Under the pieces are notes generated by a model that saw only the letters and a list, made by a program, of their open reading frames with translations, searched no databases and had not been told where the DNA came from. From Rhizobium sp. SSA_523 (GTDB lineage: Bacteria > Pseudomonadota > Alphaproteobacteria > Rhizobiales > Rhizobiaceae): 64,000 nt of DNA. Below, one piece after another: positions 43,829 to 56,734 of this stretch. The stretch spans positions 3,218,501 through 3,282,500 of the forward strand of contig NZ_CP129382.1 of NCBI RefSeq assembly GCF_030435705.1, in the 5' to 3' direction. The translations under genes and the position numbers were made by a program. Position 1 is the first letter of the stretch. The number at the start of each line of letters is the position of its first letter.

Positions 43829-44539
43829 CTAAAGCGGCGACCTGGATTGGGCGGCGATCCGCTGATAGGCGCCCAGAATGAAGCGTTCCGCCTGGTCGAG
43901 ATAGGCCTCCATCATCTGCGCGGCCGCCGCCGCCTGACCGCTTTCGAACTTCGTCAGAATATTCATGTTCTGGTCGATGAAGGGCGCGTGGAGGAATTCC
44001 GGATCCTGCAGCAGGCCGAAGACGAGCCGCAATTCCAGCGACACTTCGACGAAAAAGGCGGAGACGCGCGGGCTGTCGGCCAGTTCCACCACGCCGCTGT
44101 GAAAGGCGATATCGGCGCTTCCGACCCCAAGCCAATCGGCGTTTTCGCGGCATGACTGGGCGGCTTCCACCGCCGCGCGCATCTTGCGCGTGCCCGGATG
44201 GCTGGGATGCGCCCTGTCGAGCGCGCGGCACTCGATCATCCGGCGGACCCGGTAGATATCCATGATGGTGGAGACGCTCGGCGTCGAGACGAAGACGCCG
44301 CGATTGGCCTCGTGGCGCAGCAGGCCTTCCTTGGTCAGCATGCGGAACACTTCCCGCAACGTATTGCGGGAAACCGCGAGCTCCTCGCTCAGCGCCAGTT
44401 CGGAGAGGTGGCTGCCGGGCGTCAGGCGACCGGAAATCACCTTCTCGCGAATGCGCGCCGCCACGGTTTCCGCCAGAGTCTGACCGGCGGACGAGATCGG
44501 CCCGCCACCTGGCCCACCTTCCCGATTGAGTATCGTCAT
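43829..44539 (-). CDS. GntR-family (FadR/FCD type) transcriptional regulator
   Basis: 236 residues. The N-terminal winged helix (TLAETVAARIREKVISGRL, then SELALSEELAVSRNTLREVF) is followed by an FCD ligand-binding domain (about 85-225), whose metal ligands would include the Asp and His of SADIAFHSGVV. Start at ATG 44539 (MTILNREGG). It is divergent from the pxp-biotin-ABC operon over 264 bp that contain an inverted repeat straddling the operon promoter, so it is the likely local repressor; the ligand is probably the pathway substrate or product. Confidence 0.9.
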   Translation of the reverse strand: MTILNREGGPGGGPISSAGQTLAETVAARIREKVISGRLTPGSHLSELALSEELAVSRNTLREVFRMLTKEGLLRHEANRGVFVSTPSVSTIMDIYRVRRMIECRALDRAHPSHPGTRKMRAAVEAAQSCRENADWLGVGSADIAFHSGVVELADSPRVSAFFVEVSLELRLVFGLLQDPEFLHAPFIDQNMNILTKFESGQAAAAAQMMEAYLDQAERFILGAYQRIAAQSRSPL

Positions 44540-44731
44540 GTCATCCCGCTTGCATATGCCGATTGTCTGAACAGCGCCCCGGCGATTGCATCCCATAGCA
44601 TCGGGAGCAAAAGCTGCAACCTGCTTACATTGAACTTGCCGCGGTCGCTTCAGAAAATGGGCATATTCCCTCCGCAACCGCCAGTGGCTCCTGCGAGATA
44701 TCTGACTAAATGTAGAGCAATGCAAAAAGAT

Positions 44732-44786
44732 TGTTCAACACGGTTGACGGGATTGTCCTCCTTAACTAGCATTTCATCCCGTTAAC
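44732..44786 (+). promoter_or_regulatory. Promoter and candidate GntR operator of the pxp operon
   Basis: TTGACG (44744-44749), 17 bp and TAGCAT (44767-44772) form the promoter. An 11-bp inverted repeat with one mismatch, GTTGACGGGAT (44743-44753) and ATCCCGTTAAC (44776-44786), covers the -35 and the start region. A small palindrome TGTTCAACA (44732-44740) lies just upstream. Position suggests repression by the divergent GntR protein; binding is inferred. Confidence 0.6.
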
Positions 44787-44803: not shown

Positions 44804-45580
44804 GTGCGGGACATCGACATCAACAGCGATCTCGGGGAAAGCTTTGGCGCCTGGACCATGGGCGACGATGCAGCCATGCTGGATGTGGCGAGCAGCGCCA
44901 ATATTGCCTGCGGCTTCCACGCGGGCGATCCTCTCGGCATCTTCAGGACCCTGACCATGGCCGCCGACAGGCGGGTCGCCGTGGGGGCCCATGTCGGCTA
45001 CCGCGACCTTGCCGGCTTCGGGCGGCGCGCCATGGTCGTCTCCAGCCAGGAATTGCGCAGCGAAGTCATCTACCAGATCGGCGCCCTGCAGGCGCTGGCA
45101 AAGGCGGCCGGAACATGCGTCACCTATGTAAAGCCGCATGGCGCGCTTTATAATGCGATCGCTTTCGACGAGCGTCAGGCCGCCGATGTCATCGCCGCGA
45201 TCCAGGCCGTCGATCCCACGCTGACGCTCATGGCACTTGCGGGTTCGCCGCTGATCGCTCAGGCGCGCGCCGCCGGCCTCGATGTCGTGGCGGAAGCCTT
45301 TGCCGACCGGGCCTATACGGCGGATGGCGAGCTCGTCTCCCGGCTGGAAAAGGGTTCCGTCCTGCATGAACCGGAAGAGGTGGCCGCGCGGATGATCCGG
45401 CTGGTCCGCGAGGGCGTAATCGAATCGGTCGATGGCAAGCCGGTCCGGATCGAAGCCCAGAGCATATGCGTCCATGGCGACAGTCCGGACGCTGTTGCCA
45501 TGGCTCGCTGTTTGCGGATGCGCCTGCAGGAAGCCGGTCTGACGATACGCGCTTTCGCGACGCGGGGTGCGCCCGCGTGA
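44804..45580 (+). CDS. pxpA: PxpA, LamB/YcsF family 5-oxoprolinase subunit A
   Basis: A 258-residue TIM-barrel-like protein. It starts [16 protein letters not shown], with [27 protein letters not shown] and VKPHGALYN, the classic LamB/YcsF signatures. PxpA with PxpB and PxpC makes ATP-dependent 5-oxoprolinase, which opens pyroglutamate to glutamate. The GTG start at 44804 is set by GGAGGG 5 bp upstream. The stop overlaps the next start (GTGA). First gene of the operon. Because a biotin carboxylase follows, the true substrate may be another lactam. Confidence 0.92.
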
Positions 45581-47232
45581 CTCCCGTTGCGGCCAAACCT
45601 CGCACCGAGGCCCGAAACAGCATGCACGTCCTGCCTGTGCGGTCGGATAGCATTCTGATCGAGCTTGCCGGGCTCGACGAGGCGCTGGCGCTTTATGATG
45701 CGCTCGCCGCCGACATGCCGGCCGGCGTGCTGGACATGATCCCGGCGGCGCGCACGGTGATGATCTGCTTCGACCCGGTTCTTACCGGCGTCGAGGACCT
45801 GATGGCCGCCATCGCCGCCGTCGACACCAGGCGCAGTCGCGTTTCCGACGCGGTGCCGATCGAAATCCCGGTGCGCTATGATGGCGAGGATCTGCCGGCC
45901 GTGGCAGCCATGCTCGAGATGAGCGTCGAAGAGGTGGTGCGGCGGCATGTGCAGAGCGATTACCGCGTCGCTTTCACCGGCTTCGCCCCCGGCTTTGCCT
46001 ATCTTGCCGATGGCGACCCGCAGCTCTGCGTGCCACGCCGCACATCGCCGCGCACCCATGTTCCCGCCGGTGCGGTCGCACTGGCCGATGCGTTCAGCGG
46101 CGTCTATCCCAAGGAAAGCCCGGGCGGCTGGCAATTGATCGGCACGACCCCATTGGCCATGTTCGATCTCATGCGCGATCCCCCATCGCTGCTGCAGCCC
46201 GGCCAGCGGGTCCGCTTTCGCGACATCACGGCCGACCGCGCCTATGCAATCCGGCCGCAGCCGGAGAACCCATCCTTCTTGCACCGGGCCCCGACCGGCA
46301 AGAGCGAAGGGGCATGCGCCATCGAAGTGGTATCGATGGGCTTTCCTGTGCTGTTCCAGGATCTCGGCCGAAAGGGCCTCACACGCCAGGGCATCGGTGC
46401 TTCGGGGGCGGCCGACCAAGCCAGCCTCAGGGCGGCCAATCGCCTGGTCGGCAACGACCCCTCAGCCGCAGGTCTGGAAATCGTCTTCGGGCATTTCTCC
46501 TTCCGCATGCGCGGCCGCGGCGTGATGGCCGTGACCGGCGCTTCCCTGCCGATTGCGATCACGACCGCCGCCGGCGCGACCTTCGACGCCTCCCATTCCA
46601 AGCCTTTGCCGCTTGAGGATGGCGATACGGTCAGCCTCGGCGCTGCGCAGGCAGGGCTTCGCGCCTATCTGGCGGTTCGCGGCGGCTTCGACGTGGCGCC
46701 GGTTCTCGGAAGCCTCTCGACCGATATGCTGGCGAGGATCGGCCCCGCACCGCTTGCCGCCGGTGAGGTCATCGGTATCCTGGAGGCCAGACCCGGCAGC
46801 GTCGTCGCGCTGGATGAAATTATGGCTTTCTCCATGCCCCGGGCGGATGAAGTGCTTTGGCTGGATGTGGTTCTGGGCCCCCGCGATGGCTGGTTCACGC
46901 CTCGCTCCATCGAGCATTTCCTGAGCCGCGAATGGACGGTGTCGCCACAGTCGAGCCGCGTCGGCATCCGGCTCGAAGGCGAGGTGCTGGAGCGCGGCAT
47001 ATCCGCCGAACTGCCCAGCGAAGCTACCTTGCGCGGCGCCATCCAGGTGCCGGCGAATGGCCAGCCGGTTCTCTTTCTCGCCGATCATCCACTGACGGGC
47101 GGCTATCCTGTCATCGCCAATGTCGCCACCCATCACCTCGATCTTGCGGGGCAGGCGCCGGTCGGTGCGCGTATCCGCTTTCGTGCCTTGAGCCCGGACG
47201 CTTTGTCCCTGATGTCAGGAAAACCATCATGA
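45577..47232 (+). CDS. PxpB-PxpC fusion (KipI/KipA, allophanate hydrolase subunits 1 and 2; carboxyltransferase-like)
   Basis: 551 residues joining two normally separate proteins. Residues of about 20-235 are the KipI/AHS1 domain ([50 protein letters not shown]). Residues of about 250-545 are the KipA/AHS2 domain ([48 protein letters not shown]). AHS1+AHS2 form the carboxyltransferase half of urea carboxylase and two subunits of 5-oxoprolinase. GTG 45577 overlaps the pxpA stop; an ATG at 45622 with GAGG upstream is the alternative. It overlaps the biotin carboxylase by 4 bp. Confidence 0.92.
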
Positions 47233-49028
47233 AGAAGGTGTTGATCGCCAATCGCGGTGAAATCGCCGTCCGTATCATCAGGGCCTGCAGGGATTACGGC
47301 CTCAGGAGCGTCGCAGCCTATGCCGATGCCGATGCGGATGCCATGTTCGTGCGCCAGGCGGACGAAGCTTACGCCCTTGACGGGGTAAACCCGAAAGACA
47401 GCTATCTCGACATCGACAAGATCATCCGGATCGCCAGACGCACCGGCGCAGATGCCGTCCATCCGGGCTATGGCTTCTTGTCGGAACGGGCCGAATTTGC
47501 CGAAGCGGTCATAGAGGCGGGACTGGTCTGGATCGGGCCGGATCCCCACGTCATCGCCGCGCTTGGCGACAAGCTGAAGGCGCGCGAGATCGCCAGACAG
47601 GTCGGGGCGCCGCTTGTCGCAGGCAGCGAGGGTGCCATCGACAATGCCGCCGAAGCGCTTGCCTTCGCCCGCCGGTTCGGCCTGCCGATCGCGATCAAGG
47701 CGGCGCATGGCGGCGGCGGACGCGGCCTCAAGATCGCACGGGCACTCGAAGAGGTTGAAGAGAGTTTCCACTCCGCCAGGCGCGAGGCTCTGGCCGCCTT
47801 CGGGCGCGGCGAATGCTATGTCGAACAGTTTCTCGACCGGCCGCGCCATATCGAGGCGCAGATCCTTGCCGACCGTCACGGCCATGTTCTGGTGGTGGGG
47901 ACGCGGGACTGCTCGCTGCAGCGCCGCAACCAGAAACTCGTGGAGGAAGCGCCGGCGCCCTTCCTGACGCCGGACCAACGCGGCCTCATCCACAAGGCCG
48001 CGAGCGACATCTGCGCCGCTGTCGGCTATGTCGGCGCCGGAACGGTCGAGTTCCTGCTCAGTGCCAGCGGCGTCATCTCCTTTCTGGAGGTCAATACCCG
48101 TTTGCAGGTCGAGCATCCGGTGACGGAAGAGACAACGGGACTGGACCTGGTGGTCGAACAGTTCCGCATTGCCGAAGGCCTGCCCATCAGCCGGACGCAG
48201 ATGCCGGAGCCGAACGGCCACGCCATCGAATTCCGTATCAATGTCGAAGATCCCGCACGGGGTTTCCTGCCCTTTTCCGGAGATATTTCAACATTCGTGG
48301 CGCCAGCCGGGCCGGGTATCCGCCTGGACAGCGGTGTCGCGCAGGGATCGTCGGTTCCCAGCATGTTCGATTCTCTCATCGCCAAACTCGTCGTCTGGGG
48401 CCCGGACCGGAAGACGGCGCTGGCGCGGGCGCGGCGCGCGCTTGCGGAATTCGAGATCGGGGGCGTGCCGACCGTCCTGCCTTTCCATCGCGCCGTTGTC
48501 GATCATCCGGATTTTACGGGAGAGGCGTTTTGCGTCCATACGCGCTGGATCGAAACGGATTTTTCGGAACACCTTGAGGCTCAGCTGCGCCCGGCAGCCC
48601 CGGATCACCAATCGATGATCTCGGTCTCGGTCGAAATCGATGGCAAGCGGTCTTCTCTTCGCCTTTCCGAAAGTCTCCTCGGTCTCTTCGGTCGTGCCGG
48701 ATCGCAACCGGCGGCAGCGGCCGACATGGCCGACATGGCCGGCATGGCCAACAAGGATGAGACGGCCTTGTACTCCCCGGTTCCTGGCAATCTGACGCAT
48801 TGGACACATGCCGATGGCGATCAGGTGGAAGAGGGTGCAGTGCTTGCCGTTCTCGACGCCATGAAGATGGAGACCACTATCGTCGCCCCGCATGCCGGGA
48901 CCCTCAAGATCATCGCCAAGCCCGGCTCGCTGCAGAAAGCCGGCGCGGTGATCGCGCATATCCTACCATCGCACAATGCAGCGACGTCCTTGCCCAGCCC
49001 GCAAGGTCAGCCGGAGGCCTCACAATGA
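47229..49028 (+). CDS. Biotin carboxylase with C-terminal biotinyl-carrier domain
   Basis: A 599-residue two-part enzyme. Biotin carboxylase occupies about 1-445: [19 protein letters not shown], the ATP-grasp loop [14 protein letters not shown] and [25 protein letters not shown] domain at about 515-580 has the biotinylation motif DAMKMET, with the biotinyl lysine at 546. The linker contains an ADM triplet repeat. Acyl-CoA carboxylases also have this layout, but no acyl-CoA carboxyltransferase is here; the only carboxyltransferase-like partner is the PxpB-PxpC fusion, to which it is coupled by ATGA. Confidence 0.93.
48720..48755 (+). repeat. 9-bp in-frame repeat in the biotin carboxylase linker
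   Basis: Four 9-bp units (GCCGACATG twice, GCCGGCATG, GCCAACAAG) encode ADM, ADM, AGM and ANK in the flexible linker before the biotinyl domain. Such Ala-rich linkers vary freely in length. Confidence 0.65.
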
Positions 49029-50851
49029 CACGATCCGCGCCGCTTCAAGACAGTCTGATCTCGGTCGACAATCTCAGCGTCCGCTTCGGAGCGCAGACGG
49101 TTGTAGACGGCCTCTCATTTGCCGTGTCGCCGGGCAAGACGCTGGCGATCGTCGGCGAGTCCGGGTCCGGCAAATCGGTGACATCGCTGTCGATCATGCG
49201 CCTCGCCGACATGATGGGCGCGTCACTTAACGGTGGCCGCATCCTGTTCGGCGGCAAAGACCTGCTGCAGACCTCGCAGAAAGACATGCGGCGCATCCGT
49301 GGCAAGGACATTGCCATGATCTTCCAGGAGCCCATGACCTCCCTCAACCCGGTCTTTACGATTGGCGATCAGATCAGCGAAGTGCTGATGCTGCACGAGA
49401 AGATCGGCAAGGCGGCAGCGCTGGCCGAAGCGGGCCGGCTTCTTGACATGGTTCGGCTGCCGGGCGGCCCGGCGCTTCTCAAGCGCTATCCGCACCAGCT
49501 GTCCGGCGGCATGCGCCAACGCGTGATGATTGCCATGGCGCTCGCCTGCCGCCCGAAGCTCCTGATCGCCGACGAGCCGACAACCGCGCTGGATGTCACC
49601 ATCCAGGCGCAGATCCTGCAGATCATGCGCGATCTGCAGCAGGAACTCGGCATGGGAATGATCTTCATCACCCATGACATGGGCGTCGTGGCCGAAATGG
49701 CAGATGATGTCGTCGTCATGTGGAAGGGCAGGAAAGTGGAGGAGGGGCCGGTCCGGCAGCTCTTCGCCGATCCGCAGCATCCCTATACCCAGACCCTTCT
49801 GTCGGCCGTGCCACGCCTTGGCAGCATGGAAGGTCACGATTTTCCCCGACGAATGCCCATCACCCTCGTGCAGGATGGCGAGAAAACCGTTATTGGCGAG
49901 GAAAGACGCCAGGATACGGCGCGCTATGATCAGGCGCCGCTCCTTTCCGTCAGCAATCTCGCCGTCCGTTTCGATGTCCGCAAGACCATGTTCGGCCAGG
50001 TGACGCATCGATTGAGCGCGGTGAACAATGTCAGCTTCGACATTCATCCGGGCGAGACACTGGCGTTGGTCGGCGAATCGGGATCCGGCAAGTCCACCAT
50101 CGGGCGCACAATCCAGCAGTTGCAGAAGGCCAATTCCGGGCAGATCCTGTTCAACGGCAAGAGCTATGCGGACATGTCGGCGTCCGAGCGCTTTTCCATG
50201 CACCGCAATGTCCAGTATATTTTCCAGGATCCGTTCGCCTCGCTCGATCCCCGCAAGACGGTCGGGTTTTCGGTGGCGGAACCGATCCACACGCACGGTC
50301 TCCTCTCGGGGGAGACGGCGGTTCGCCGGCGCGTCGACGAATTGCTGGAAAGGGTGGGTCTCGGATCCGGCTATGCCGATCGCTTCCCGCATGAATTCTC
50401 CGGCGGTCAGCGCCAGCGCGTCTGCATTGCGCGCGCACTCGCCTGCGAACCGAAACTGATCATTGCCGATGAAGCACTGTCTGCGCTGGATGTCTCGATC
50501 CAGGCGCAGATCATCAATCTCTTCATGGACCTGCAGGCCGAACGCGATCTCGCTTACCTGTTCATCAGCCATGACATGGCCGTGGTCGAACAGATCAGCC
50601 ATCGCGTGGCGGTTCTCTATCTCGGTCAGATCATGGAAATCGGCACGCGCCGCCAGGTGTTCGAGACGCCGGCGCATGCGTATACGCGCCGCCTTCTGTC
50701 CGCCGTTCCCGTCGCCGACCCGACAGCACAACGCAAGCCGCAGCGTATCGACGGCGAGATCCCCGATCCCGTTCGGCGTGTCGGCGACGAGCGGCCCATT
50801 CTTCCGCATCAGGAAATAGATCCAGGCCACTTCGTTGCGATGAGTGCCTGA
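49025..50851 (+). CDS. Fused double ATPase of peptide ABC transporter
   Basis: 608 residues with two ABC modules: Walker A GESGSGKS near 44-51 and again near 353-360; signatures [13 protein letters not shown] and [13 protein letters not shown]; Walker [13 protein letters not shown] and [12 protein letters not shown]. The second Walker B has the less common EAL in place of EPT. This is a DppD-DppF fusion. It overlaps the biotin carboxylase stop by 4 bp, physically linking transport to the carboxylase genes, and precedes its own binding protein by 41 bp. Confidence 0.94.
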
Positions 50852-50892
50852 GTGATATCGACAATCGCATGAAACCAAGAGGAACAGATAAG

Positions 50893-52425
50893 ATGGCAAG
50901 CATCAAACTGGGAATGACTTCAACTTTCATGGCGCTAGCCTTGGCCGGCGTCGCCTTTGGTGCCGCGCCTGCCTCCGCCGCAGGCAAGGTCACCGTGTCC
51001 ATCGCAACCGATCCCGGCAGCTGGGACCCGGTCGACACCTTCCTGGTCGCCTGGGGTTCGGTCGGCTCCAATATCTTCGACGGTCTGACGAGCCGTGACA
51101 CCAATGCCAAGATCGGGCCCGGCCTTGCGACCAGCTGGGAGGTTTTGGACAATGGCCTGCGCGTCCGCTTCGCTCTGCGCGAAGGCGTCAAATTCCACAA
51201 TGGCGAAGCCTTCAATGCGGATGCCGTGAAATACACCTTCGACCGCCTTCTCGGTGAGGAAGGTGCAAAAGGTCCGCAGCGCGCCAATTACACCTCGATC
51301 GATCGTGTGGAGGTCATCGACGAAAAGACGGTGGATTTCCACCTCAAGGCTGCCGATCCGGTGCTGATCACCAAGCTTGCCGGTTACGGCGCGATGATCG
51401 TGCCGCCGCAATACATCAAGGAAAAGGGTGAGGATTATTTCAACGCTCATCCCGTCGGGACCGGCCCCTTCAGCTTCGTCGCCTACAATGCCAAGATCGA
51501 CCTGCAGCTGAAGGCCAATCCCGATTACTGGGGCGGCGCGGCAAAGATCTCGGAACTGGATTACCGCTTCATCTCCGAGCCGGCCACGGCCGTGGCCGAG
51601 TTGCAGGCGGGGCGCGTGGATCTCGTGATTGACCTGCCGATCAGCCTGATCCCGGTTGTCGAAGGCGATTCCAAGCTGGCGGTCGAGTCAACCACCGGCC
51701 CGGTCGTCAACGGCCTGCGTTTCAATACCAAGGACGGCATCACCAAGGATGAAAGGGTGCGCAAGGCCCTGATCATGGCGGTGGACCGCGCCACCATCAT
51801 CCAATCCTTGCTGGGTGGCCAGGCGACGGAAATCGCCAGCTTCCAGAGCGCGCTTTCCTTCGGCGACGATCCGTCCCTGAAGCCGCTGCCCTATGATCCG
51901 GCCAAGGCCAAGGCGCTGCTGGCAGAGGCGGGCGTCAAGCCCGGCACGCCGGTGCAGATCGATATCCGGTCGGGCAATCCTACCTTCAACGAGGTTTCGC
52001 AGGCGATCGCGGCCTATCTCCAGACCGTCGGCATCAATGCCACCGTGAAGCCTTACGAGACGAATGTCTTCCTCAACGACATCGTCCCGCAGGGCAAGAC
52101 CGGCGCAATGTTCCAGCAGAGCTGGGGCGGCTGGACGCTGGACTACGACAACACCGCCTATCTTCTCTACCATTCCGGCCAGAAGTGGAACCCTTACGAC
52201 GCGGATCCGAAGCTCGATACCATGCTCGAAGAGCAGCGCCCGATGACGGATGTCGGCCAGCGTGAAAAGCTGCTGCAGGGCATTGCCGGCTATATTGCCG
52301 ACAAGGCGCTCGAAATGCCGCTTTACAACCTGAACGCAATCTATGGCGTCAACAAGCGGGTGAAGGATTTCGTCGCTGCGCCGGACAACCGCGTGAAGCT
52401 CAACGAAGTGTCCGTCGCCGAGTAA
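50893..52425 (+). CDS. Peptide ABC transporter, periplasmic binding protein
   Basis: A 510-residue SBP_bac_5 protein with signal peptide (MASIKLGMTSTFMALALAGV, cleavage near ASAAG). Core features include NIFDGLTSRDTNAKIGPGLA, FALREGVKFHNGEAFNADAV, VGTGPFSFVAYN and QQSWGGWTLDYDNTAYLLYH. AGAGGAA precedes ATG 50893; an ATG at 50869 would put eight charged residues ahead of the signal peptide. Family members bind peptides, nickel, heme or glutathione; the operon suggests pyroglutamyl or other modified peptides. A hairpin follows. Confidence 0.92.
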   Translation: MASIKLGMTSTFMALALAGVAFGAAPASAAGKVTVSIATDPGSWDPVDTFLVAWGSVGSNIFDGLTSRDTNAKIGPGLATSWEVLDNGLRVRFALREGVKFHNGEAFNADAVKYTFDRLLGEEGAKGPQRANYTSIDRVEVIDEKTVDFHLKAADPVLITKLAGYGAMIVPPQYIKEKGEDYFNAHPVGTGPFSFVAYNAKIDLQLKANPDYWGGAAKISELDYRFISEPATAVAELQAGRVDLVIDLPISLIPVVEGDSKLAVESTTGPVVNGLRFNTKDGITKDERVRKALIMAVDRATIIQSLLGGQATEIASFQSALSFGDDPSLKPLPYDPAKAKALLAEAGVKPGTPVQIDIRSGNPTFNEVSQAIAAYLQTVGINATVKPYETNVFLNDIVPQGKTGAMFQQSWGGWTLDYDNTAYLLYHSGQKWNPYDADPKLDTMLEEQRPMTDVGQREKLLQGIAGYIADKALEMPLYNLNAIYGVNKRVKDFVAAPDNRVKLNEVSVAE

Positions 52426-52495
52426 GCGGCGCGTCGAGGCCGACGATCTTCAGCCCAGCGCGGGTGGATCGGACGGTCGTCGCTTAGGCTATCGA

Positions 52496-52523
52496 GGCAG
52501 GCATCGCAGGATCGGTGCCTGCC
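52496..52523 (+). terminator. Hairpin after the second binding-protein gene
   Basis: Stem GGCAGGCA (52496-52503) / TGCCTGCC (52516-52523) with a 12-nt loop, then ACCCTTTC. It lies in the 135-bp gap before the permeases. Like the hairpin in the first transporter operon it could uncouple binding-protein from permease expression. T-run weak, so attenuation is uncertain. Confidence 0.5.
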
Positions 52524-52560
52524 ACCCTTTCTAGTTCTGTCAAATCAACGGACCCCGTTC

Positions 52561-53484
52561 ATGGCTGGTTTTATCCTCAGGCGTCTGGCTCAGGCCATAT
52601 TTGCCGTTCTGGCTGTCACGCTGCTTGTGTCCTTCGCCATACGCTTGACCGGGGATCCCGCACTCATGCTCACCCAGGGCGCCGGCAGCATCACCGAGGC
52701 CGATCTGGTCCGCATCCGGGAGGCGCTCGGCGTCAACCGCCCCTTCTTCGTTCAATATCTCGAATTTCTGCGCGGCATCGTCACCTTCGATCTCGGCCGC
52801 AGCTTTCTCGGCGGAACGCCGGTTTCGCAACTGATCGGTACGGCCTTGCCTGCGACTCTGGCGCTCGCCTTCTGGTCCATGTTCGTTTCCATCGTCCTGT
52901 CGATCCCGCTCGGCATCAAGGCCGCCACATCGCGCGGCGGCTGGATCGACCAGACGATCCGCATCGTGTCGCTGGTCGGCCTGTCCTTCCCGAACTTCTG
53001 GCTGGCGATCATGTTCGTCCTGATCTTTTCGATCACCTTCAACCTCTTGCCGCCGAGCGGCTTGAGCGGTGCCTCGAGCTACATCATGCCGGCCATGACG
53101 ATGGGCATCATCATGACGGCAGTGAATGTACGCCTCGTGCGCACAACCATGCTGGAGACGCTGAATTCGCAGTATATCATGGTGGCGCGCGCCAAGGGCC
53201 TCAGCGAGACCAAGGTGCTTTACAAGCACGCTCTGCGCAATTGCGCCATCCCGATCGTCACCTATCTCGGCGTGCAGTTCGGCGGGCTTCTTGGCGGCAT
53301 CGTCGTCGTCGAGCGGGTGTTCAACTGGCCAGGGCTCGGCACGCTTGCCTTCGATGCCGTGGGCGGGCGCGATTATCCTGTCCTGCAGGCCACTATTTTC
53401 GTGCTGTCGCTGATGATCATCGGCGTCAACCTTCTGGTCGATATTGCCTATGGCCTCATCGATCCGCGCATCCGGACGGAGTAG
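52561..53484 (+). CDS. Peptide ABC transporter permease (DppB/GsiC-like)
   Basis: A 307-residue permease with six hydrophobic segments, beginning MAGFILRRLAQAIFAVLAVT, with the family IREALGVNRPFFVQYLEFLR region and the EAA loop near YIMVARAKGLSETKVLYKHA. It pairs with the next permease, whose start is 8 bp after its stop. Confidence 0.93.
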   Translation: MAGFILRRLAQAIFAVLAVTLLVSFAIRLTGDPALMLTQGAGSITEADLVRIREALGVNRPFFVQYLEFLRGIVTFDLGRSFLGGTPVSQLIGTALPATLALAFWSMFVSIVLSIPLGIKAATSRGGWIDQTIRIVSLVGLSFPNFWLAIMFVLIFSITFNLLPPSGLSGASSYIMPAMTMGIIMTAVNVRLVRTTMLETLNSQYIMVARAKGLSETKVLYKHALRNCAIPIVTYLGVQFGGLLGGIVVVERVFNWPGLGTLAFDAVGGRDYPVLQATIFVLSLMIIGVNLLVDIAYGLIDPRIRTE

Positions 53485-53492
53485 AACCAGCC

Positions 53493-54347
53493 ATGGCAAA
53501 GCTTAGCAAGCCACACCGCTTCTCACGCTTCAGGAGCCTTGAGTTCATCCTCGGCTTCGTGCTGATCGGCACCATCCTGACGGCGGCGCTTCTGGCCAAT
53601 GTATTGTTTCCGGCAGGGTTCGACCGCATCGACCTTCTCGCCCGCCTCAAGCCGCCGTTCCAGATCATGGCCCATCCCTTCGGGACCGACCCGCTGGGGC
53701 GCGATATTCTGGCGCGAGTGATCGCCGGAGGGCGCATATCGCTTCTGGTCGGTGTCACCTCGGTGGCCGGCGCGGCAATCATCGGCATCGCTGTCGGCCT
53801 GATCGCCGGCTATTATCGGGGCGTCACCGAAATGCTGGTGATGCGCTTTGCCGATATCCAGCTGGCGCTGCCCTTCATCCTGCTTGCCATCACCTTTATC
53901 GCCATTCTCGGCGGCAGCCTGCAGAACACGATCATCCTGCTCATCGTGTCGCAATGGGTGCAATATGCACGGCTGGTGCGGGGATCGGTCCTTGCCCTTC
54001 GGGACCGGGAGTTCGTGCTGGCGGCCAAGGCAATCGGCGTCAAGAACTGGCGGATCATCCTGCAGCATCTCCTGCCCAACCTGACGGGGCCGGTCATCGT
54101 CCTGATGACGTTGAATGTGGCAACCAACATCCTCCTGGAAAGCAGCCTTACCTTCCTCGGCATGGGCGTGGATCCCAGCGTCCCGACATGGGGCGGCATG
54201 CTGGCGGATGCGCGCACCTATATGCAGACGGCCTGGTGGGCCAGCGTCTTTCCCGGCCTTGCCATTCTCCTGACCGTGCTTGGCCTTAATCTTCTCGGAG
54301 ACTGGCTGCGTGACAGCCTCGATCCGACCGGCAGAACCTCCAGGTGA
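53493..54347 (+). CDS. Peptide ABC transporter permease (DppC/GsiD-like)
   Basis: A 284-residue permease: N-terminal helix near FILGFVLIGTILTAALLANV, the conserved PFGTDPLGRDILARVIAGGR and the EAA loop REFVLAAKAIGVKNWRIILQ. Compact, without the long insertion seen in the OppC-like protein of the first operon. ATG 53493. The M14 gene follows 4 bp after the stop. Confidence 0.93.
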   Translation: MAKLSKPHRFSRFRSLEFILGFVLIGTILTAALLANVLFPAGFDRIDLLARLKPPFQIMAHPFGTDPLGRDILARVIAGGRISLLVGVTSVAGAAIIGIAVGLIAGYYRGVTEMLVMRFADIQLALPFILLAITFIAILGGSLQNTIILLIVSQWVQYARLVRGSVLALRDREFVLAAKAIGVKNWRIILQHLLPNLTGPVIVLMTLNVATNILLESSLTFLGMGVDPSVPTWGGMLADARTYMQTAWWASVFPGLAILLTVLGLNLLGDWLRDSLDPTGRTSR

Positions 54348-54351
54348 TCCG

Positions 54352-56082
54352 ATGACAAAAATTTTCGAGACGTCCTTCGAGCGCAGCCTCGACCAGCTTG
54401 TGGCCATGGCGCAACCGGGAGACCGGTTCGAGGCCTGGACCTTCGACGATCGGTCAAGCCGCGAGGCCGCCATGGCACGGCTTGCCGAAAAAGGCGTTAC
54501 GGCGCGCATTCGCAGCGCCTATAAGCCGCTGGTCACGTTTTTCCGGGAGGAAGTCGATCTCGACGATGTCGAGACGATCGAAATCCACTATCCGGTCCAC
54601 CCTGCGGCTGCGCAGAACCGGTTCCGGCTGGAAGCCTATCCGCTGGCAGCGCTGGTGGGCTCGGCAAGCCTCATCTTCGTCGCGCGCGAGGATGCGGAGT
54701 TCCGTTACGAGATCCGCTTGACGCGCGCCCATTCGGAGGAAACCCTGACCGTGCTTGCCCCCAACCGGGTGCACCAGGACATTCTCGGCGAGACCAATGT
54801 CTCCCCGACCGGCTGGCTGCGGCGGGACGGCGAACCGGATGGAGCCCGTTTCGAAACCGATTACGAACGGCTGTTCCATTCGACCATGGCGGCAATCGCC
54901 GGCTTTGGCTGGGGTGATGAGGAGCCGTATTTCGAGGAGTTGAACATCCGCGTCGCACATCCGGCCGCCGATGAACCGCTTCCCTATGACGATGAAGTGC
55001 TGAGCCTGCGGGAAGCCCTGCACGAGGACTTCTATTTCTCGCTTCTGGAAGTGTTCCAGGCGAAATCCGGCCGGCCGTCCGGCTACCGCGACCTCAGGCC
55101 CGGCCAGATCGTGCCGGAAATCGTCCAGAGCGAGGGGCGCGTCAGCGTCTCAGTCACCACGAGGGCGCTTTCGACGGAATTCCTCGATGGTCCCGAGCAG
55201 GAGATCGACCGGGCGCGGGAGCCGATCGCTGCCGGCCAGATCGCGTCCTGCCTCGAGACGATCGGCGGACAGGGCTTTGCCGCAAGAAGCCGATCCGGCA
55301 GGACCGTTGCGGCGCGCTATGTGAAGGGAACGGATCTGCCGGTCATGATCAGCGGCGGGCAGCATCCCAACGAGGTCAGCGGCATTATCGGATGCCTGCG
55401 GGCAGCGCTGATGCTGAAGAACAGGGAGGGCGCGCATTTCACCATCTCGCCGCTCGAAAACCCCGATGGCTACGCGCTGGATCAGCGGCTGCGGCGCGAC
55501 AATCCCCGCCATATGCATCACGCCGCTCGCTACACCGCGCTTGGGGATGATCTCGAATATCGCACGCCGGAGAATTCCGGCGGTCATCTGAACGAGACGG
55601 ATATTCGCCTGCAGGCGCAGCGAATGACGGGGGCGGGGCTGCATATCAACCTGCACGGCTATCCCGCGCATGAATGGACGCGGCCGCTCTCCGGCTACGT
55701 TCCGCGCGGCTTTGCCATGTGGACGTTGCCGAAAGGCTTCTTCCTGGTTCTTCGCCATCATGCGGGATGGGAAGACACGGCGGAGGAACTGCTGGACCGG
55801 GTCACCCGCCACTTAAGCGCGATACCCGGCCTGCTCGACGACAATGCCAGGCAGATCAAACGGTATGAAACCCATTCCGGTGAAACGGGCTTCCGTATCA
55901 TCAACGGCTTTCCCTGCCTGTCCTCCGTCGACGATCGTCACGCGGTTCCCATCACGCTCATCACCGAATATCCGGACGAGACGATCTACGGGCAAGACTT
56001 GATCGCCGGCCACACTGCCCAGATGGAGACGGTGCTTTCCGCCTATCGGGCCTGGCAGGAGATCCATCAAAGGCTCTCCTGA
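54352..56082 (+). CDS. M14-family zinc carboxypeptidase-like protein
   Basis: 576 residues. The first 300 have no recognised domain (mixed alpha/beta, starting ETSFERSLDQLVAMAQPGDR). The C-terminal half is M14-like: GGQHPNEVSG gives zinc ligands H338 and E341, ENPDGYALDQRLRRDN contains the NPDG and substrate Arg region, INLHGYPAHEW gives the third ligand (H435), and LITEYPDETI supplies a likely catalytic E539. No signal peptide, so cytoplasmic. As the last gene of the pxp-biotin-ABC operon it probably trims imported peptides; substrate unproven. Confidence 0.85.
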   Translation: MTKIFETSFERSLDQLVAMAQPGDRFEAWTFDDRSSREAAMARLAEKGVTARIRSAYKPLVTFFREEVDLDDVETIEIHYPVHPAAAQNRFRLEAYPLAALVGSASLIFVAREDAEFRYEIRLTRAHSEETLTVLAPNRVHQDILGETNVSPTGWLRRDGEPDGARFETDYERLFHSTMAAIAGFGWGDEEPYFEELNIRVAHPAADEPLPYDDEVLSLREALHEDFYFSLLEVFQAKSGRPSGYRDLRPGQIVPEIVQSEGRVSVSVTTRALSTEFLDGPEQEIDRAREPIAAGQIASCLETIGGQGFAARSRSGRTVAARYVKGTDLPVMISGGQHPNEVSGIIGCLRAALMLKNREGAHFTISPLENPDGYALDQRLRRDNPRHMHHAARYTALGDDLEYRTPENSGGHLNETDIRLQAQRMTGAGLHINLHGYPAHEWTRPLSGYVPRGFAMWTLPKGFFLVLRHHAGWEDTAEELLDRVTRHLSAIPGLLDDNARQIKRYETHSGETGFRIINGFPCLSSVDDRHAVPITLITEYPDETIYGQDLIAGHTAQMETVLSAYRAWQEIHQRLS

Positions 56083-56105: not shown

Positions 56106-56615
56106 TCAGACGCGCCGATAGCTGCGGTCGAAGTAGATCAGCGCCTGGCCGCTCTTGCGCAGGTGGATCGTCTCGACCGTGCAAAACAGGACTTCATGCG
56201 TCTCGCCATCGGCCGTGGACCCGATCCGGCAGTCGAATGAAGCGAGCGCCCCTTCCAGCCGGTGGCAACCGGTCTCAGTCCGCGTCCACTCGGCCGCGGC
56301 AAAACGCTCCTGCACCGGCGTCTTGCCGCCGAAGAGACGGCTGAGATCTTCATGGTCAGCGGACAGGATATTGATGCAAACCACCTGATTGTCGCGGACC
56401 GGCCGATAGGCTGAGGAACCGCGGTTGAGACATACCAGCAATGTCGGCGGCGAATCCGAGACGCTGCAGACGGCCGTGGCCGCAAAGCCGGCCTTCCCGC
56501 CCGGTCCATCGGTGGTGACGATGGTAACGGCGGCCCCCAGGCGCGCCATCGCGTCGCGAAACGCCATGCGCTGTTCGTCCTCAGGAATGGCAGTCTGTAC
56601 CGCGGCAGCCAACAT
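56106..56615 (-). CDS. Flavin reductase family protein (RutF/HpaC-like)
   Basis: A 169-residue FMN-binding split-barrel protein. Typical are [40 protein letters not shown] and [16 protein letters not shown]. Relatives reduce FMN with NADH for a partner monooxygenase. The start at 56615 has GGAGAG seven bases upstream, preferred to the ATG at 56636. No monooxygenase gene is nearby. It is convergent with the M14 gene (23 bp between the stops). Confidence 0.9.
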
Positions 56616-56734
56616 AGGCGCTCTCCAATTCGTCATTGCCGCTATTTTACGACGGAACGGACTAACAGTTCAGGGGGCAGGGCAGGAAACTCGCGTTTGT
56701 GGTTAAAAGCGTGGCGCGGCCAGAAGGCCCGGCA

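Follow-up and report, generated by a model that had tools for sequence, protein, structure and literature searches.

Within a 64-kb stretch of the Rhizobium sp. SSA_523 genome (contig NZ_CP129382.1; this whole stretch is the window to which all coordinates below refer unless a locus is named), positions 44804 to 56082 are occupied by an operon that joins the genes of a Pxp-type 5-oxoprolinase to those of a biotin carboxylase, a peptide-type importer and a putative metallo-carboxypeptidase. Gene content, conserved linkage and phylogeny suggest, with a probability that we put at roughly two in three, that this operon encodes a 5-oxoproline-induced, biotin-dependent 5-oxoprolinase together with a module that feeds it.

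The core comprises three genes on the forward strand. The first, pxpA (44804..45580, GTG start), belongs to the LamB/YcsF family (PF03746, 329.9 bits; NF003814, 367.1 against a cut-off of 226). It is followed by a PxpB-PxpC fusion (45622..47232, forward strand) in which a CT_C_D domain (PF02682) precedes a CT_A_B domain (PF02626), and by a biotin carboxylase (BC) fused to a biotin carboxyl carrier protein (BCCP) domain (47229..49028, forward strand), which domain matches and phylogeny assign to the AccA3 type. The fusion clears TIGR00724 (256.2 against 230.2), with PxpB and PxpC domains present at the family level, and stays under the NCBIfam equivalog cut-offs for PxpC (178.9 against 500) and PxpB (134.2 against 145.55). 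In the carboxylase, Pfam and NCBIfam searches and motif position locate the BC domain, the BCCP and a biotinylation motif; the lysine predicted to carry the biotin is K546, within an AMKM sequence that we take to be the biotinylation site, and its codon lies at 48864..48866 on the forward strand. Two ATGA overlaps, at 47229-47232 (fusion/carboxylase) and 49025-49028 (carboxylase/importer ATPase), tie these genes to each other and to the importer. An earlier reading of this DNA made from the sequence alone had described the same gene order, domains and 4-bp overlaps, and the profile searches, which name pxpA, a CT_C_D-CT_A_B fusion, a biotinyl-ended carboxylase and an importer, bear it out.

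In the mechanism that we propose, the importer would bring in short peptides, probably pyroglutamyl dipeptides, from which the M14 enzyme would cut off the C-terminal residue, leaving free 5-oxoproline. The carboxylase would charge biotin on its own BCCP domain with ATP and bicarbonate, the PxpBC fusion would act as the carboxyltransferase and N-carboxylate the lactam of 5-oxoproline, PxpA would hydrolyse the activated ring, and the resulting N-carboxyglutamate would lose CO2 to yield glutamate. A divergently encoded GntR/FCD protein would repress from its operator and be released by 5-oxoproline. Urea carboxylase carboxylates an amide-type nitrogen ahead of hydrolysis, and it is by analogy with this enzyme that we infer carboxylation of the lactam nitrogen by the fusion, with carboxybiotin as donor, to be the activating step.

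Linkage of the carboxylase to the pxp genes

Two samples were used. The first consists of 80 loci from named genomes of Pseudomonadota and Actinomycetota, a non-random set because a scan with the fusion gave 580 loci, of which the best 80 were kept; here the carboxylase directly follows the fusion in 76 loci and pxpA precedes the fusion in 79, the four loci without an adjacent carboxylase all being actinobacterial (L193, L220, L221 and L223). The second covers Pseudomonadota, where PxpA is present in 124 of 299 genomes and where 80 stretches around PxpA places, hand-picked for genus spread and representing part of all such places, were taken. Thirteen of these 80 stretches contain a fusion with an AccA3-type carboxylase (hereafter type A), the carboxylase being 67-72% identical to that of the window (in one of them, L067, the fusion match is split over two frames), and five show the order pxpA, carboxylase, pxpB, pxpC (type B), with carboxylases 46-49% identical. 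In the opposite direction, close relatives of the carboxylase amount to 14 genes in 13 of the 299 genomes, that of the window included, and all 14 lie inside type-A pxp loci (at most four carboxylase candidates per genome were scored, at E up to 1e-150).

Among genomes of the same genus, orthologues of the carboxylase (65-75% identity) were found in 20 of the 35 others. Fourteen of these loci keep the full block of regulator, pxpA, fusion, carboxylase, ATPase, binding protein, permeases and M14 gene, and six keep only pxpA, fusion and carboxylase; upstream of all six lies a gene resembling that for the NRAMP-family protein of L062, the one protein of this group on which Pfam was run. In the remaining 24 genomes from the order, carboxylase matches reach about 50% at best, the level of ordinary AccC. 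The carboxylase link is no local accident, and the core pxp-carboxylase gene set recurs in many bacteria; conserved co-occurrence across genomes, to which the sequence-only reading had pointed as a check, is seen in both directions of search. Solitary pxpA genes also exist: two of them, 61-62% identical to that of the window, lie at L072 7027-7788 and L079 6978-7751, with no pxpB, pxpC or carboxylase match within about 7 kb.

Partner of the carboxylase and signature residues of PxpC

In a carboxylase tree, the type-A carboxylases and AccA3 of Mycobacterium smegmatis form one clade (support 100/100; 31 of 50 rows), outside which fall AccC, the 673-aa and 657-aa carboxylases encoded in the same genome as the window (the two others there that bear a BCCP), and pyruvate carboxylase; the type-B carboxylases make up a separate clade of their own. 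AccA3 is also the top match of the carboxylase in PDB (643 bits), level with an acetyl-CoA carboxylase chain (641), the next match scoring 485. A single entry, 9YX5, combines this best solved match of the carboxylase with chains that are among the best matches of the fusion: it holds AccA3 and chains named allophanate hydrolase subunits 1 and 2, homologues of the two fusion halves, under the title 'Structure of the long chain acyl-CoA carboxylase complex from Mycobacterium smegmatis with MSMEG_0435-MSMEG_0436 bound'.

The kinship with AccA3 raises the alternative that the carboxylase, like AccA3, provides an acyl-CoA carboxyltransferase from another locus with carboxybiotin: according to published text, several such carboxyltransferases share AccA3 in mycobacteria, whereas the carboxylase of the window shares an operon with the fusion. 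We consider this alternative very improbable. The genome encodes five biotin carboxylases and yields four Carboxyl_trans matches, two of which adjoin the 673-aa and 657-aa carboxylases, while the remaining two sit elsewhere and, at 307 and 334 aa, have the sizes of AccD and AccA, after which they are named here; the pyruvate carboxylase (a 1156-aa frame) presumably carries its own carboxyltransferase. With these genes accounted for by other carboxylases, no acyl-CoA carboxyltransferase among the four matches is left over for the pxp carboxylase; a pairing of the carboxylase with such a carboxyltransferase elsewhere is what the sequence-only reading had named as speaking against its proposal. 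In addition, close relatives of the carboxylase occur in the Pseudomonadota sample only in pxp loci.

The fusion itself was compared across 181 loci (counted with duplicates kept; L147 and L057, on contigs of equal length, are apparently one locus). Of these, 107 are of type A, 56 lack a carboxylase within 3.5 kb, 10 are of other kinds, and in 8 no PxpC was found. For the residue comparison, the linked set comprises 109 loci, namely the type-A loci plus L203 and L209 (carboxylase 54% identical), and the unlinked set comprises 52, namely the 56 minus the four actinobacterial loci, which were displayed separately; in two of the 52, L128 and L130, the stretch does contain a carboxylase from a different clade at a greater distance. 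Among the others, five type-B loci were likewise displayed separately, and L087 (match cut by the contig end), L138 and L142 were excluded.

Four residues of the fusion, R354, R422, W425 and F486, are present in 109 of the 109 linked proteins and in none of the 52 unlinked ones, and a fifth, P491, in all 109 linked proteins and in 1 of the 52 unlinked. The solo fusions of the four actinobacteria carry all five, and the chain of 3MML, a homologue of MSMEG_0436, has R354, R422, W425 and P491 with a leucine at position 486. YbgK of Escherichia coli lacks R354, R422, W425 and P491, and the urea carboxylase of Kluyveromyces lactis has, of the signature, only an arginine of the R354 type and a proline of the P491 type. 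In the PxpB part, F159 is found in 104 of 109 linked and in 5 of 5 type-B loci; at this position the 52 unlinked proteins have Q in 46 cases and F in none. The type-B PxpC proteins lack R354, R422, W425 and P491, so these four residues do not mark every carboxylase-linked PxpC. The PxpC tree unites type A, the four actinobacterial solo proteins and 3MML in one clade (100/100), and places type B with urea carboxylase (100/97, on a long branch). A PSN-D-Y-G pattern is shared between urea carboxylase and the PxpC of the type-B loci (L077, L129, L136, L139 and L141).

Taken together, the two-way linkage, the signature residues, the joint structure of homologues and the lack of an unpaired acyl-CoA carboxyltransferase among the matches in the genome give good support to the view that the biotin carboxylase and the PxpBC fusion are partners. 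This is the part of the earlier proposal of a biotin-dependent opening of a lactam that has gained from the present analysis; carboxylation itself is still argued from analogy.

The main rival is that the fusion and PxpA constitute an ordinary ATP-dependent 5-oxoprolinase that acts by direct phosphorylation, with the carboxylase as a passenger or in a separate role. PxpB and PxpC, working as PxpABC, are credited with ATP hydrolysis in the accessible text of PMC13274462 and PMC8453981, and direct phosphorylation of 5-oxoproline is assumed for PxpABC in that of PMC13274462. Most pxp sets of the phylum sample are moreover carboxylase-free (52 loci, with none within 3.5 kb of pxpC), a second set in the genome of the window (locus L012) included. 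Along with this published assignment of ATP use and these carboxylase-free loci, several other observations weigh against a biotin-dependent enzyme. The signature residues follow the phylogeny of PxpC as well; since they track kinship, they are markers rather than proof and may mark a clade, not a mechanism. The signature is present without an adjacent carboxylase in the four actinobacteria; an AccA3-type carboxylase (56-58% identity) is encoded elsewhere in three of these genomes, and the genome of L220 has no AccA3-type match (best 49%), although the L220 stretch ends just past the fusion and may therefore lack an adjacent gene. Six of the 76 linked loci gave no BCCP match, one of them (L222) at a contig end; the reverse search was limited by its ceiling on candidates per genome; and in 9YX5, known here from its title and chain names, joint binding does not demonstrate carboxyl transfer. 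Against direct phosphorylation stand the adjacency in the named loci, the complete reverse linkage, the distinct residues where a carboxylase is linked and the joint structure of the homologues, and we regard this rival as unlikely.

Predicted regulation, likely substrate and proposed feeding module

The regulator gene (43829..44542, reverse strand; GntR PF00392 and FCD PF07729) is PxpR-like and divergent from the operon, and a divergent homologue lies upstream in 60 of the 80 named type-A loci. Between it and pxpA, at 44728..44744 on the forward strand, is the predicted operator AGATTGTTCAACACGGT, which matches 14 of 17 bases of agattgttcaacaatct, the site at which the GntR-family PxpR of Corynebacterium glutamicum acts; according to the accessible text, PxpR binds 5-oxoproline with a KD (dissociation constant) of 726 nM (PMC13274462). 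This is the only site with at most three mismatches in the window, shuffled sequences leading one to expect 0.02 such sites per 64 kb, and the whole genome has five, that of the window included. The motif TTGTTNAACAA with at most one substitution occurs in 57 of the 60 regulator intergenic regions of the named type-A loci, compared with 4 of 1200 shuffled stretches (a rough control, made by single-base shuffles of a nearby stretch), and ATTGTTCAACA, again with at most one substitution and anywhere in the stretch, in 96 of the 107 type-A loci compared with 11 of the 56 without a carboxylase.

The neighbourhoods of relatives point in the same direction. An NRAMP gene adjoins pxpA in 37 of the 80 named loci, and NRAMP kin, PxpT of C. 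glutamicum and YcsG of Bacillus subtilis, are required for 5-oxoproline use according to the accessible text of PMC13274462. Of the named loci, 36 have D-glutamate cyclase, 9 have a DUF969/DUF979 pair and 5 have an MFS gene (the family having been tested on one protein each), and pyroglutamyl peptidase was confirmed in all three candidates tested from the loci of relatives. At L061 13407-14009, an NRAMP-family gene matches in two separated pieces only. Given the pyroglutamyl peptidase, NRAMP transporters and D-glutamate cyclase of the relatives and the PxpR operator of the window, the likely substrate can be narrowed to 5-oxoproline.

It is quite unlikely, in our view, that the system instead carboxylates or opens another amide or lactam, such as a lactam peptide, a hydantoin, urea or guanidine. 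A substrate of this sort would fit the window's peptide importer and M14 gene, the urea carboxylase carboxyltransferase is a homologue of PxpC, and the carboxylase-free second pxp set of the genome could already serve 5-oxoproline; to be set against this are the neighbouring genes of the relatives and the operator just described, and a type-A PxpC clade that is distinct from that of urea carboxylase.

The importer, on the forward strand throughout, consists of a double ATP-binding cassette (ABC) ATPase of the peptide type (49025..50851; PF00005 twice and oligo_HPY; GsiA is the top NCBIfam model, with a score under its cut-off), a family-5 solute-binding protein (50893..52425; PF00496, 310 bits) and two permeases (52561..53484, PF00528 and PF19300; 53493..54347, PF00528). 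The last gene (54352..56082, forward strand) encodes a protein with an extra N-terminal region that gave no Pfam or NCBIfam match in profile searches; its C-terminal part is predicted to adopt the M14 carboxypeptidase fold and its homologues are named M14 peptidases, in agreement with the earlier assignment. H338, E341, H435 and E539, which we take to be the zinc and catalytic residues, are invariant in 24 aligned rows, and stretches such as 437-462 and 509-523 have low confidence in the model. Past the operon and convergent with it lies a gene for a RutF-like flavin reductase (56106-56636, reverse strand).

The importer genes and the M14 gene are a local addition to the core, found in 15 of 36 same-genus genomes. 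It is plausible from gene content that they supply pyroglutamyl dipeptides. Counting against this peptide part of the proposal, pyroglutamyl peptidase is lacking in the genome of the window and likewise in 36 of 36 same-genus genomes, so that its absence is not specific to the importer/M14 variant and only weakly suggests that the M14 protein substitutes for it. The second complete pxp set of the genome, on contig C3, has pxpA on one strand and pxpC and pxpB on the opposite one, with no carboxylase within L012 and without the signature residues; in this region (L012:5422-19001) a peptide-type ABC importer and three peptidases, two M24 and one M20, are its neighbours, which means that both pxp sets of the genome come with peptide import and with peptidases of different families. 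In Bartonella sp. M0177 (L192 12030-15365), a type-A set is followed downstream by a gene of the peptidase S58 family and by one for an importer ATPase with 59% identity to that of the window, in what appears to be a parallel feeding module with another peptidase. The import and trimming of a lactam peptide, as envisaged from the sequence, is possible for the local variant only; elsewhere this set of enzymes is often accompanied by NRAMP-type transporters or, in the tested loci, by pyroglutamyl peptidase.

Relation to known systems and implications

The domains of urea carboxylase and urea amidolyase (3VA7, 5I8I), namely BC, BCCP, CT_A_B and CT_C_D, are all present in the window, and the operon had been read as holding this domain set split over two genes, with PxpA added. 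A urea carboxylase in two parts was ruled out: the known enzymes are single chains with CT_A_B before CT_C_D, whereas the window has the reverse order on two chains; the window proteins miss the cut-off of the urea carboxylase model TIGR02712 (505.3 and 150.8 against 1303.85); and PxpC forms a separate clade. What holds of the earlier interpretation overall is the pairing of carboxylase and fusion, with peptide uptake possible in a local variant.

The PxpABC systems of B. subtilis and C. glutamicum share with the window the PxpA, PxpB and PxpC domains, an NRAMP gene in many relatives and, for C. glutamicum, a similar GntR regulator and operator. They differ in that PxpB and PxpC of the window are fused, are accompanied by a dedicated biotin carboxylase and miss the equivalog cut-offs; the fusion residues, too, are unlike those of carboxylase-free PxpC, in a set compared without the C. 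glutamicum PxpC. An operon with pxpB, pxpC, pxpA, accB and accC has been published, as a gene order, for Staphylococcus aureus (PMC11315280). Judged by that order alone, as given in the accessible text, a combination of pxp with biotin carboxylase and carrier genes is already known; accB and accC are separate genes there, and the fused AccA3-type arrangement differs. For Lactiplantibacillus pentosus, pxpB/pxpC and an extra BC/BCCP pair are noted, without being linked to each other in the portion of text seen. Our literature search, whose coverage mostly excludes subscription papers, brought up no paper testing the biotin dependence of Pxp.

The two-component 5-oxoprolinase of Pseudomonas putida is described in the accessible text of PMC8453981 as a component A of 64 and 51 kDa and a component B of 82 kDa. 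Type-A carboxylases have masses of 60.2-64.0 kDa, the fusions (where fused) 56.0-59.5 kDa and PxpA 26.1-27.3 kDa, three copies of PxpA amounting to 78-82 kDa. The likeness is one of mass, and the 51-kDa value matches the fusion, at about 57 kDa, imperfectly; YbgJ and YbgK of E. coli, with 218 and 310 residues, fit the component sizes more poorly. Type-A loci are present in several Pseudomonas species among the best 80 of 580 named loci.

We tentatively propose, as a view that is possible rather than probable, that there are two enzymologically different Pxp 5-oxoprolinases, one biotin-free and the other a biotin-dependent N-carboxylase recognizable by R354, R422 and W425 of PxpC and served either by a dedicated AccA3-type carboxylase or by a shared AccA3; that the two-component enzyme of P. 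putida is of the second kind; and that in the genus of the window this kind is fed by a dipeptide importer and an M14 carboxypeptidase replacing pyroglutamyl peptidase. If this is true, how PxpB and PxpC use ATP becomes a directly testable question, diagnostic residues would be at hand for sorting annotated PxpC proteins, and the older two-component Pseudomonas enzyme would have a candidate identity. A widespread bacterial route of pyroglutamate recycling would then run on biotin and bicarbonate, like urea carboxylase, and biotin may be a hidden requirement of this recycling in bacteria whose AccA3 is shared.

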